Assembly (NCBI GenBank): GCA_013154085.1
Contig: JAADDE010000006.1
Span: 1 to 64,000, forward strand
Length of the DNA: 64,000 nucleotides
Reading direction: 5' to 3'
Source: Thermoproteota archaeon
GTDB taxonomy: Archaea > Thermoproteota > Thermoprotei_A > Sulfolobales > Ignicoccaceae
In this document: piece by piece, positions 21,946 through 40,777 of the stretch
How positions within the stretch are numbered: position 1 is the stretch's first letter
How the letters are laid out: every line of letters starts with the position of its first letter
Notes under the pieces: model-generated
Told to the model about the DNA's origin: nothing
What the model saw: the letters and a program-made list of their open reading frames with translations, nothing else
Databases searched by the model: none
Program-made: the position numbers and the translations under genes

Positions 21946-22764
21946 TTAAAACGAACGCTTCGCCAGCTCCTCGAGGAGGCGTCTGTACACCTCCCTCCAC
22001 GGCGGAGCCCTACCGAGCCATATTCTCTCGCTCTCAACTCCTTGCACGACGAGCATCTTGAGTCCGTTGACCGCAACGGCCCCTCTCTCCCTCGCCATCT
22101 TGAGGAGGGGCGTGTAGAGCGGCCGGTATATCATGTCTACCACGACCTGGCCCTTTGTGAGGGCCTCGGGAGGAACTGGAGAGGATGAACCGTCCATTCC
22201 TACGGGAGTAGCATTTATCACGACGTCATGCTTCCTTATCTCCCCGACTTCGCTCAAGGACCTCGCCTCTACCCCGAACAGCCTAGCCAGCTCCCTCGCC
22301 CTCTCCGGAGTTCTGTTGAAGATGGTAACGTGAGCGTCGTCCATAAAGGCCACTACGGCGGCCCTCGCCGCTCCCCCCGCTCCTAAGATCGCTATCCTTA
22401 ATCCCTTCGGATCTACGACTTCCTCGACGCTGACCCTTATTCCAGCCACGTCCGTGTTGTAGCCAACGCTCTTATCCTTGAAGTCGATGACGTTCACAGC
22501 CCCGACCCTCCGCGCGACGGGGTCCAGCTCGTCGACGAGCTCCGCTGCCCTTACCTTGTGGGGTATGGTGACGTTTATTCCCCGGAAGATCAGCGGAGCG
22601 GCGCGCATGAAGTCGTCGAGCTTCTCCGGGGGGACGTCAACCTTGAGGTACTCGGCCTCCACACCTAGGATCTCAAACCCTATTCTGTGAAGGACCGGCG
22701 AGAGGGAGTGCGCTATCGGGTGACCGATCACCGCGAACAACGCTGTCCCTCCGGGGGCAGACAT
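21946..22764 (-). CDS. aroE: Shikimate dehydrogenase
   Basis: NADP-dependent reduction of 3-dehydroshikimate to shikimate in aromatic amino acid synthesis. AVIGHPIAHSLSPVLHR, the catalytic lysine in INVTIPHKV, the Rossmann turn ILGAGGAARAAV, IFNRTPERARELA and NATPVGMDG are all intact. Length 272 is normal. ATG 22764 is chosen; a TTG codon precedes it. It is the only gene of the shikimate pathway in the window. Confidence 0.96.
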   Translation of the reverse strand: MSAPGGTALFAVIGHPIAHSLSPVLHRIGFEILGVEAEYLKVDVPPEKLDDFMRAAPLIFRGINVTIPHKVRAAELVDELDPVARRVGAVNVIDFKDKSVGYNTDVAGIRVSVEEVVDPKGLRIAILGAGGAARAAVVAFMDDAHVTIFNRTPERARELARLFGVEARSLSEVGEIRKHDVVINATPVGMDGSSSPVPPEALTKGQVVVDMIYRPLYTPLLKMARERGAVAVNGLKMLVVQGVESERIWLGRAPPWREVYRRLLEELAKRSF

Positions 22765-22768
22765 CAAG

Positions 22769-22779
22769 ATTTATTTACT
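22769..22779 (+). promoter_or_regulatory. TATA box of the Trp-rich miniprotein gene
   Basis: GATTTATTTAC is centred 26 bases before GTG 22800, predicting a leaderless mRNA that begins at or next to the start codon. Confidence 0.6.
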
Positions 22780-22780
22780 T

Positions 22781-22800
22781 CCGTTAGGTATGCCTAACGG
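22781..22800. promoter_or_regulatory. Perfect palindrome, likely repressor operator
   Basis: CCGTTAGG-TATG-CCTAACGG: two perfect 8-base inverted arms with a four-base centre. It lies exactly between the TATA box and the GTG start of the Trp-rich gene, where a bound repressor would block initiation. It also lies just upstream of aroE on the other strand. The TTAGG/CCTAA half-sites resemble sites of DtxR-type metal regulators; that link is inference. Confidence 0.6.
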
Positions 22801-23000
22801 TGATACGCGTGCCCCGTTGGTGGGGTAAGGGCAAGCACGGCTGGCGCTGGTGGTATTGGTATTATTTTGAGAGGAGCGAGCCTCCCCAGCCGCCCGCTGA
22901 GCTCGCCACGAAGGACGAGGTCCCGCCGCCTCCGGCTTGGGGCCCTGGATGGCGCTGGTGGTACTGGTGGTGGTACTCCCAAGGCAACAAGGAGAGATGA
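22800..23000 (+). CDS. Tryptophan/tyrosine-rich miniprotein
   Basis: 66 residues, 13 of them Trp. Two near-identical aromatic blocks (GWRWWYWYYF and GWRWWYWWWY) flank a proline-rich linker (EPPQPPAEL and VPPPPAWGPG); the ends are basic. A well-placed TATA box gives a leaderless transcript starting at GTG 22800. The opposite strand is also open, but has no promoter and a low-complexity composition. Not a family I can name. The blocks recall Trp-rich stretches of some metal-cluster-related small archaeal proteins (DUF5320-like), but the similarity is only in composition. Confidence 0.6.
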   Translation: MIRVPRWWGKGKHGWRWWYWYYFERSEPPQPPAELATKDEVPPPPAWGPGWRWWYWWWYSQGNKER

Positions 23001-23001
23001 T

Positions 23002-24198
23002 TTATCTCACATAGTCGGCCGCCGGGCACCTCCTACCTACGAAGCTGAGCAACACGAGCGCGTCGTTCGCGTTCAGTACCCCATCCTGATTTACGTCGCC
23101 GGTTATGGAGAAGAGATTCTTGAGTTGCGGGGGCATCATGTTGACCACCGTCCTGCAGTAAGTTCGGTTCGTTATGAGGCCAGTCAAGCACCCCACGACC
23201 TCGAAGTCTTTCATGGTGTAGTTCCCGTCCAAATCGACGTCGCCCGGGCACTTACGGGCGAATGAGACCTCGAAGCTCTGTAGCACGGCCCCTACGTAGC
23301 TTGTGGGTACGCGGAAGTTGTATACAGCCGAGGGATACGCCGTTACTGCGACGTTGACGGTCAAGGGGGGCACGGTTATCAGTCCCGACGGACCCCTAGC
23401 TTGGCTGTAGGTCCCTTGGACCGGGTAAGCCACTCCTCCCTTAACTGAGAACACGTAGAAGACCGGCCTCGGGTAGTCCCAGTACCCGGCGGGCTTGATG
23501 GCGTTGGGCGTGGCCCATCCCCACTGCATGGTTATGTTCGTCACGCCTCCAACGTTGTAGACGTCGGGAACGGGGGCGTAGTATAAGCTTCCCCAAGGAC
23601 AAGGCTGGTTGGCTATCATCCTCCTCCCGTAGAGGGAGACGTCCGCCGGCGACGTCGAGATGAAGTATGTAAGCGTGACCGTATCTCCGACCCTCAGCTG
23701 GACGTTGTACGGCGCTACGGCGAAGAGGTAGAAGGTCCTCATGTTGTAGGACAGGAAGCGGGCTATGGAGCCAGCCACGGTCTTAGAAGCCACGTCGGGC
23801 CTCGGACTGATTATGCACATAACGAAGAGTTCGTTCGCAAACGGACCGAGCATGCTGGTCAGAGCTCTGTACCGCGGGGGAACGGTCGTGAGCACTCTAA
23901 ACCTCACGTCCAAGAACTTTTCCAGACTTCCCATAGCCGGGTAGAAGTTCATTATTCCCTCATAGTACAGCATGCACGACGGAGCGCCTTCACAGAGCCT
24001 CAAGTCCGTTCTCACGTAAATCTTGGAGAACAAGTTAGTATAGAGGTTTACAGAAGATATCTCGAATATTCCGCGGCCGTCGAAGTAGAAGCCGTAGGAA
24101 CCCATTATCCTTACCGGCGTCATGGGGGTGGCACTATTCGTCAAAGCGCTCAGGCTCAGCAAGAGCAGACTCGCGACCAACGGACTCGCACGCCTCAA
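23002..24198 (-). CDS. Exported protein with C-terminal dockerin-like calcium repeats
   Basis: N-terminal signal peptide (PLVASLLLLSLSALTNSA), ~290 residues of extracellular beta-rich sequence with NVT/NIT-type sequons and paired cysteines, then two EF-hand-like dockerin repeats near the C-terminus: GDVDLDGNYTMKDFEVV and GDVNQDGVLNANDALVLL. Such repeats bind calcium and, in bacteria, dock onto cohesins; no cohesin is visible here. The start could be TTG 24198 or a later TTG; the first ~65 bases overlap the upstream gene. Converges with the Trp-rich gene, leaving one base between stops. Confidence 0.75.
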   Translation of the reverse strand: MRRASPLVASLLLLSLSALTNSATPMTPVRIMGSYGFYFDGRGIFEISSVNLYTNLFSKIYVRTDLRLCEGAPSCMLYYEGIMNFYPAMGSLEKFLDVRFRVLTTVPPRYRALTSMLGPFANELFVMCIISPRPDVASKTVAGSIARFLSYNMRTFYLFAVAPYNVQLRVGDTVTLTYFISTSPADVSLYGRRMIANQPCPWGSLYYAPVPDVYNVGGVTNITMQWGWATPNAIKPAGYWDYPRPVFYVFSVKGGVAYPVQGTYSQARGPSGLITVPPLTVNVAVTAYPSAVYNFRVPTSYVGAVLQSFEVSFARKCPGDVDLDGNYTMKDFEVVGCLTGLITNRTYCRTVVNMMPPQLKNLFSITGDVNQDGVLNANDALVLLSFVGRRCPAADYVR

Positions 24199-24451
24199 CG
24201 TAGGCCCCGAGGACGTTCTCGCAGAACCCTTTTACTTCGTCGGCGCGGCGCGGAACCCGCGTCGCCAGGACGAACGCGTTGTAGTGGTCGCTCCAAGTCA
24301 CTATGGGGCTAGGCTCTATCAGCTTGAACAGCTCCAAGCCTTTCTTGAGGGCTTCGTCGCAGTCGTCCCCGCAAGGGACTATCAGCGCCACGTGGAGCCT
24401 CTTCTCTTCGACGCTCGTTCCGGACTCCCACGTCAAGACCCTCAACGACAT
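24134..24451 (-). CDS. Hypothetical small alpha/beta protein
   Basis: 105 residues from ATG 24451. Pattern: strand (LHVALIVPCGDDCDEALKKG), helix (LELFKLIEPSPIVTWSDHYN), strand (AFVLATRVPRR) and helix (ADEVKGFCENVLGAYVEACE). Its last 65 bases overlap the start of the exported dockerin-like gene on the same strand, so expression may be coupled. No family recognised. Divergent from thiL. Confidence 0.55.
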   Translation of the reverse strand: MSLRVLTWESGTSVEEKRLHVALIVPCGDDCDEALKKGLELFKLIEPSPIVTWSDHYNAFVLATRVPRRADEVKGFCENVLGAYVEACESVGRESALAEPERFDE

Positions 24452-24483
24452 AGCCCCCTTGCCGTCTCCGGGCTGGGGACTTC

Positions 24484-25329
24484 TTGAGGGTCGAGGCGTC
24501 GTTGCTCAACCTCTTCAAAGATGTGAAGAAGGGATTAATGCCCCCCGGCGACGACGTCGACGCGTTCGAGGTGCTAGGAAAGTTCGTGGTGGTCAACGTT
24601 GATGGTTTTGAAGCAAAATATGTAAAGATGGAATTTATGACCTTGAGGGACGTCGGCTGGAGAGGTCTGATAGCCTGCATGAGCGACCTGGTGGCCAAGC
24701 TCGTTCGCCCGGAGCTCTTCTCCTTCTCAGTGTATGGGAAAAGCTTTGAGGAGGTGGCGGAGCTGAGCGCCGGGGTCGCCGAAGCGGCTAAGGAGTACGG
24801 GCTGACGTTCTTGGGAGCCGACACGAACGCCGGCGAGGCGGCGGTGGACGCGTTTTGTATGGGGGTAGCCGACTTCCTTCCCCCGCCCTTGGGGGGCGCA
24901 AGGCCCGGCGACGCGATAGTCGTGCCGGAGGGGTGCTGGGGGTGCGTGGCGGAATGCTTGAGGGGTAAGTACTACGAGCACTGCAGGAGGCCGAGGGTGA
25001 GGACAGAGCTGGCCGAGAGGGCCGCCGAGTTCCGCGAGTTCATCTCCGCCTCCACCGACTCGAGCGATGGCCTCGCGATCAGCTTGTACAAGATGGCTGT
25101 TCTCTCCGGAAGCAGGATAGTCCTCACGGACCCGCCCCCGGGCCCCTTGGGGGAGTCCGGGCTGTACGGCGGGGAGGAGTACTTGCCGGTCTTTGCGGTT
25201 AAGAAGGAAGTTGCCGAAGAGCTTGCTGAATCGATAGGAGGTAAGGTAATAGGCTACGTGGAGCGCGGGCGCCCGGCGGTGCTGTACAAGGGCACCGAGG
25301 TGAGGCCGGAGGGCTGGGAATGGTTCTAA
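24484..25329 (+). CDS. thiL: Thiamine-monophosphate kinase-like (AIR synthase fold) protein
   Basis: PurM/ThiL-type ATP-binding fold: the N-terminal PPGDDVDAFEVLGKFVVVNVD corresponds to the GDDAA segment, then DVGWRGLIACMSDLVAK, FLGADTNAGE, ARPGDAIVVPE and ASTDSSDGLAISL. ThiL makes thiamine diphosphate from the monophosphate; related archaeal paralogs may act on other substrates, so the exact reaction is likely but not certain. Start TTG 24484. The 3' end overlaps valS by ten bases. Confidence 0.75.
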   Translation: MRVEASLLNLFKDVKKGLMPPGDDVDAFEVLGKFVVVNVDGFEAKYVKMEFMTLRDVGWRGLIACMSDLVAKLVRPELFSFSVYGKSFEEVAELSAGVAEAAKEYGLTFLGADTNAGEAAVDAFCMGVADFLPPPLGGARPGDAIVVPEGCWGCVAECLRGKYYEHCRRPRVRTELAERAAEFREFISASTDSSDGLAISLYKMAVLSGSRIVLTDPPPGPLGESGLYGGEEYLPVFAVKKEVAEELAESIGGKVIGYVERGRPAVLYKGTEVRPEGWEWF

Positions 25330-40012: not shown

Positions 40013-40777
40013 GTGGCTAAGAAGAAGTCTAAGAAGAGCACGACAAAGACCAAGAGAGTTAGGAGGAGGACGTGGGACCCAGTCCAAGTGGCCGAGCAGT
40101 ACGCGCCCAACGTCGCGACGGCGGTGGGCCTCGACGTATTGGGCCTCAGCGAGGACCAGTACGTCGAGCTCTTGAGGGACGTGCTCGTGAGCTTGATAGG
40201 AGATAGAGTTACCAAGCCGAAGCCGGAAACGCTGGTGAACGCTATAAAGAGGAACGAAAAGAAGGTTATGCCGGTAGTAGCGGCGAAGCTGCTGGAGATG
40301 ATACCGGAAGGCAAGCTGACCGCAGAGCAACTGGACTTCGTCATGAGCTACATAGGCCCGCTGGTCATACCCTTTGCCCAGAGGCTCTACAGAGAAGCCA
40401 AAAGGCTCGGAGCAGACCCGAGCCCCCTCCAAGCGGCTTGGGAGGAAGCTTGGCGCCTCCGCGGCGAGCCCGGCCCGGTGGGCTACTGCCCCAAGTGCGG
40501 CTTCCGCTCGGTTGCCCCGGACGGCAGTTGCATGGTGTGCGGCGCGGTGCTGGACGACGAGGAGCTGAGGGGCGCGGTGGAGTTCGACTCGAAGTTCAAG
40601 GCCTTTCTAGAGGAGGCCTCCTGCAGCGAGCTTAAGGAGGCGCTCGCGAAGGGCTCGCTCTACGCCGGCCACGCCTCCCTCCACACAGCTCCCAAGAGCA
40701 AGTGGGACGTGGAGGTCCTCCTACGGAGGGCCGATAGGGAGGCCTTGAGAGAGGCGCTGAGGCTTAGGTGCTCCTAA
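40013..40777 (+). CDS. Hypothetical protein with zinc ribbon
   Basis: 254 residues from GTG 40013, preceded by AGGTGGGATCA. Very basic N-terminal tail (MAKKKSKKSTTKTKRVRRR), a helical middle (VTKPKPETLVNAIKRNEKKV), a zinc ribbon (YCPKCGFRSVAPDGSCMVCG) at about residues 155-180 and an alpha-helical C-terminal part. The lysine-rich tail and ribbon suggest nucleic-acid binding or ribosome association, by inference only. The 3' end overlaps the next gene by 14 bases. Confidence 0.65.
   Translation: MAKKKSKKSTTKTKRVRRRTWDPVQVAEQYAPNVATAVGLDVLGLSEDQYVELLRDVLVSLIGDRVTKPKPETLVNAIKRNEKKVMPVVAAKLLEMIPEGKLTAEQLDFVMSYIGPLVIPFAQRLYREAKRLGADPSPLQAAWEEAWRLRGEPGPVGYCPKCGFRSVAPDGSCMVCGAVLDDEELRGAVEFDSKFKAFLEEASCSELKEALAKGSLYAGHASLHTAPKSKWDVEVLLRRADREALREALRLRCS

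Follow-up and report, generated by a model that had tools for sequence, protein, structure and literature searches.

The window, ie the whole stretch of 64,000 nucleotides that was analysed, contains a short forward-strand frame for a tryptophan-rich miniprotein, enclosed by a divergent and a convergent gene and preceded by a TATA-like box and a palindrome. The features of the locus are:

21946-22767, minus strand: aroE (shikimate dehydrogenase; Pfam Shikimate_dh_N), divergent neighbour, outside the system
22770-22777, plus strand: TATA-like box TTTATTTA, by direct reading
22782-22799, no strand assigned: predicted DtxR/IdeR-type operator CGTTAGGTATGCCTAACG, with its core TTAGGTATGCCTAA at 22784-22797
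22799-22804, plus strand: Shine-Dalgarno-like GGTGAT (putative role)
22800-23000, plus strand: frame from the alternative upstream start, GTG 22800, to TGA 23000 (66 aa)
22809-23000, plus strand: coding sequence of the Trp-rich miniprotein, most likely start GTG 22809 (63 aa), stop TGA at 22998-23000
23002-24198, minus strand: secreted-looking protein with dockerin-like repeats, convergent neighbour (link to the miniprotein unproven)

The plus-strand frame from GTG 22800 to TGA 23000 translates to MIRVPRWWGKGKHGWRWWYWYYFERSEPPQPPAELATKDEVPPPPAWGPGWRWWYWWWYSQGNKER. Direct reading of it bears out the original prediction of 13 tryptophans in 66 residues and of two aromatic blocks, GWRWWYWYYF and GWRWWYWWWY, with a proline-rich linker between them. 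The linker is also acidic, the ends of the protein are basic, and 19 residues in all are aromatic. Per 66-residue stretch it is the richest in tryptophan of the window's 526 stop-to-stop frames of at least 60 codons (13 versus 8 for the runner-up). Searches of Pfam, NCBIfam and PDB sequences with the window miniprotein returned no match, and neither a signal peptide nor a membrane-spanning stretch was apparent in it by eye. The AlphaFold model is poor (mean pLDDT 56.5) and shows, at low confidence, a pair of short helices at the aromatic blocks. As to the convergent neighbour, two calcium-type repeats are found at the C-terminus of the dockerin-like protein, which scores 21.2 bits against Dockerin_1, just below the cut-off.

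Four genomes of one genus, which we infer to be Ignicoccus, were compared: the window's own assembly (G000, 82% complete) and three other well-covered genomes (G001, G002 and G003). Genomes of 1,297,538 and 1,394,664 bases are included in this genus. Orthologues of the same layout are present in all three of the other well-covered genomes; none was found in a further, 56%-complete genome of the genus. The alignment of the four retains both aromatic blocks, the proline/acidic linker and the basic tail, and the conservation at the amino-acid level runs through to the C-terminus. Among the invariant residues Trp, Gly and Pro predominate, with a single Glu besides; none is Cys or His. Pairwise pS among the orthologues (0.70-0.85) exceeds pN (0.29-0.45), the ratios being rough because pS is near saturation, and most of the differences fall at codon position 3. 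On this comparison the Trp-rich frame is a real gene, because each of the three other well-covered genomes has an orthologue and the differences are concentrated at third codon positions, and the earlier view that it was unlikely to be a chance frame holds. The proposed check, whether the frame is disrupted in close relatives, was made, and the gene passed it.

The gene appears to be restricted to the genus within the genomes searched, with no convincing homologue outside. Among 214 genomes from the order and 398 from the phylum, weak matches lay mostly in stop-containing or unrelated frames, and two scans of genome contigs gave no homologue. The many Trp codons next to aroE could suggest a leader peptide that senses the supply of tryptophan on behalf of aromatic amino-acid genes; this reading was rejected and has a negligible probability. 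It is contradicted by the gene order (with aroE divergent and the gene on the other side convergent, nothing is led), by the G001 locus, which keeps the miniprotein without aroE, and by amino-acid-level conservation as far as the C-terminus. It is also very improbable that the frame opened by chance in TGG-rich DNA, or that the gene is an antisense frame. One antisense frame is likewise open in G000, G002 and G003, but it has a stop in G001, whereas the differences in the sense frame favour third codon positions and a promoter and operator stand on the sense side in all four genomes.

The palindrome at 22782-22799, CGTTAGG-TATG-CCTAACG, lies between the TATA-like box and the start codon, and its core TTAGGTATGCCTAA fits TTAGGNNNNCCTAA, the 14-bp half-site consensus proposed for IdeR/DtxR targets (PMC8464063). 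The same operator precedes the Trp-rich gene in all four genomes, exactly in G000, G001 and G003 and with one mismatch in G002. In G001 an inorganic pyrophosphatase gene takes the place of aroE upstream while the palindrome and the miniprotein remain, which ties the operator to the miniprotein gene. A TATA-like box is found 10-16 nt before the palindrome in the promoters of the Trp-rich gene of G000, G001 and G002 and in the feoB promoters of G000, G001 and G003, and the spacing of box, palindrome and start is alike in the two sets. The TATA box was correctly described as properly placed. The operator-like palindrome, too, very probably serves as an operator; it is of the DtxR/IdeR iron type and common to feoB.

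The message had been described as leaderless, and GTG 22800 is possible as a leaderless start from the TATA spacing. However, the counterpart of this codon in G002 runs directly into an in-frame TAA, which leaves the GTG aligned with 22809 as the start of translation in that genome. That is the start kept across the orthologues, 11 nt after the palindrome and behind GGTGAT; a GGTG-containing stretch between palindrome and start is present in all four. The feoB start, 10-13 nt after its own palindrome in the same genomes, is placed much like GTG 22809. Taken together, the TAA in G002, the GGTG before the conserved start and the feoB-like spacing make a short leader with a Shine-Dalgarno motif more likely than a leaderless message, and the earlier description is probably wrong.

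The distribution of the operator was examined across the four genomes. The pattern TTAGGNNNNCCTAA occurs 18 times, versus 3 times for a reversed control pattern; of these 18, feoB accounts for four and the Trp-rich gene for three. The operator stands directly before feoB in every genome, at the same position after a TATA-like box. Before feoA it was found only in G002 (site at 1095813); a reading of that site as a NifX or glutamine synthetase promoter was ruled out, the gene being feoA. NifX-like genes carry the operator unevenly, with exact copies in G000 (contig C9) and G003 (C131) and copies with one mismatch in G000 (C46), G001 and G002. The identities of FeoB and of the NifX-like proteins were confirmed with Pfam. 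Eight of the ten exact KTTAGGNNNNCCTAAM sites are at the Trp-rich gene, feoB, feoA or NifX-like genes.

Proteins of the DtxR family are encoded in G001, G002 and G003, with both the DNA-binding (PF01325) and the metal-binding (PF02742) domain over the cut-off; the G002 gene is at L099:2367-2744 on the minus strand. No DtxR gene was found in G000, the window's own, 82%-complete genome. On sequence evidence, predicted membership of the miniprotein gene in a DtxR-type regulon is well supported, because the operator matches the consensus, is shared with feoB, and a repressor is encoded in three of the four genomes. DtxR-family proteins can respond to manganese instead of iron. The likeness to known DtxR/IdeR-MntR regulons extends to the operator, the promoter position, feoB and feoA as common targets and the presence of a family protein in three of four genomes. 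The Ignicoccus sites differ in being of the half-site form, a single palindrome in an archaeal TATA promoter, and the targets differ in including a Trp-rich orphan and NifX-like genes. No paper describing an Ignicoccus iron regulon was found in the open literature searched.

Several other sites were noted. The other two of the ten exact KTTAGGNNNNCCTAAM sites, 16-bp palindromes at 24362 of contig C30 in G000 (L039, near 2464) and at 11201 of C66 in G003 (L040, near 2503), are unexplained, with no clear iron gene; a TSUP-like transporter is found near the latter. The window has a second exact site, at 40764, which appears to belong to a coding region. In G003 an exact TTAGGAAAACCTAA (L045, near 1141) stands between a peroxiredoxin gene and its divergent neighbour, possibly linking iron and peroxide control. 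At L101 (1301-2966) a NifX-like gene with an iron-type palindrome is followed by two P-loop ATPases with ferredoxin-like Cys motifs.

Metal-loaded DtxR covering the transcription-start region would block transcription. From this knowledge of the family and the geometry of the promoter, we infer that, with iron sufficient, a metal-loaded DtxR-family repressor would shut off the miniprotein gene by binding the palindrome that separates its TATA box from its start codon. When iron is short the repressor would be released, and the gene would be switched on with feoB, which encodes the ferrous iron importer, feoA and the NifX-like genes. The miniprotein is, then, probably made when iron runs short.

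Its composition and predicted co-regulation suggest an accessory role in iron handling. Tandem aromatic blocks beside basic residues would fit contact with a membrane interface or with another protein. The miniprotein would most likely be a small accessory that docks at such an interface, or on FeoB or a NifX-like carrier, and aids the uptake or hand-off of iron. Direct binding of iron is unlikely; with no conserved Cys or His, a partner or scaffold at the membrane interface is favoured over a direct iron ligand. Of the suggested metal or cluster handling, the general area was right, a DtxR/IdeR-type palindrome being shared with feoB, but direct binding of a metal or cluster did not stand, for want of those residues. 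The two other roles suggested at first, association with the membrane interface and aromatic stacking with a cofactor, may still apply. Like the FeoA/FeoC-type accessories of FeoB, the miniprotein is small and is predicted to be co-regulated with feoB; unlike them, it has no similarity to any Pfam family (the window miniprotein does not match the FeoA domain, PF04023), and Ignicoccus has a separate FeoA. The full explanation, a genus-restricted member of a DtxR regulon acting as an accessory in iron handling, is judged slightly better than even. More tentatively, and at rather less than even chances, it may represent an undescribed, genus-specific Trp-rich family in ferrous iron uptake or hand-off with FeoB or NifX-like proteins, serving as an accessory in iron starvation in which tandem aromatic blocks replace metal-binding residues.

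Two other accounts of its function were weighed against the accessory role. The miniprotein may instead be a stand-in, specific to Ignicoccus, for DUF5320 (PF17253), working with NifX-like carriers on metal-cluster transfer. In the Thermoproteota 25 of 30 DUF5320 loci (L103-L132) have a NifX-like gene no more than about 1.5 kb away, and the Trp content of many of these proteins is strikingly high. No DUF5320 over the cut-off was found in any Ignicoccus genome, yet all have NifX-like genes, with which the miniprotein gene has its operator in common. The sole Pfam match of the orthologues is to DUF5320 (best E 0.0046), at a best score of 18.5 bits for the G003 orthologue against a gathering cut-off of 27; the window protein had no match. 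However, a profile-profile comparison (hhalign) based on 14 NifX-linked small proteins aligned only two columns, and 5 of 100 column-shuffled controls did as well or better. The miniprotein also has an aromatic block at its C-terminus where most DUF5320 relatives have a coiled coil, and no NifX-like gene adjoins it, its neighbours being aroE or the pyrophosphatase gene and the dockerin-like gene. Membership of DUF5320 was rejected, with a Pfam score below the cut-off and a profile similarity no better than composition. What the two share is small size, richness in G, R, W, Y and P, and, by predicted regulation, the same pathway context; the miniprotein resembles DUF5320 in style and at most works like one, and we regard a stand-in as doubtful. 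No functional study of DUF5320 was found in the literature searched.

Somewhat less probable again, and unlikely, is a membrane-interface peptide with a job in the envelope, at the inner or outer cellular membrane, that is iron-regulated incidentally and perhaps linked to the dockerin-like protein. Aromatic blocks beside basic residues are a usual mark of interfacial anchoring, and in each of the four genomes the dockerin-like gene is an adjacent, convergent neighbour with its 3' end near the miniprotein gene. In the window the gap is 1 nt, so that the two transcripts may overlap. Against this, the miniprotein lacks an apparent signal peptide or membrane-spanning stretch, as noted above, and the iron operator was not found at the operon of the dockerin-like gene: no palindrome with up to two mismatches is present at 24100-24600 of the window, on its 5' side.

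The preferred reading remains an accessory in iron handling. The result also points to a wider theme: throughout the Thermoproteota, small proteins rich in Trp and Gly are commonly encoded beside NifX-like genes, and no study of them was found in the literature searched. For Ignicoccus, the shared palindrome outlines a candidate iron regulon of feoB, feoA, NifX-like genes and the miniprotein. An odd-looking orphan frame is thereby turned into a gene whose expression can be tested under one defined condition, iron depletion, and for which a few possible partners can be named.
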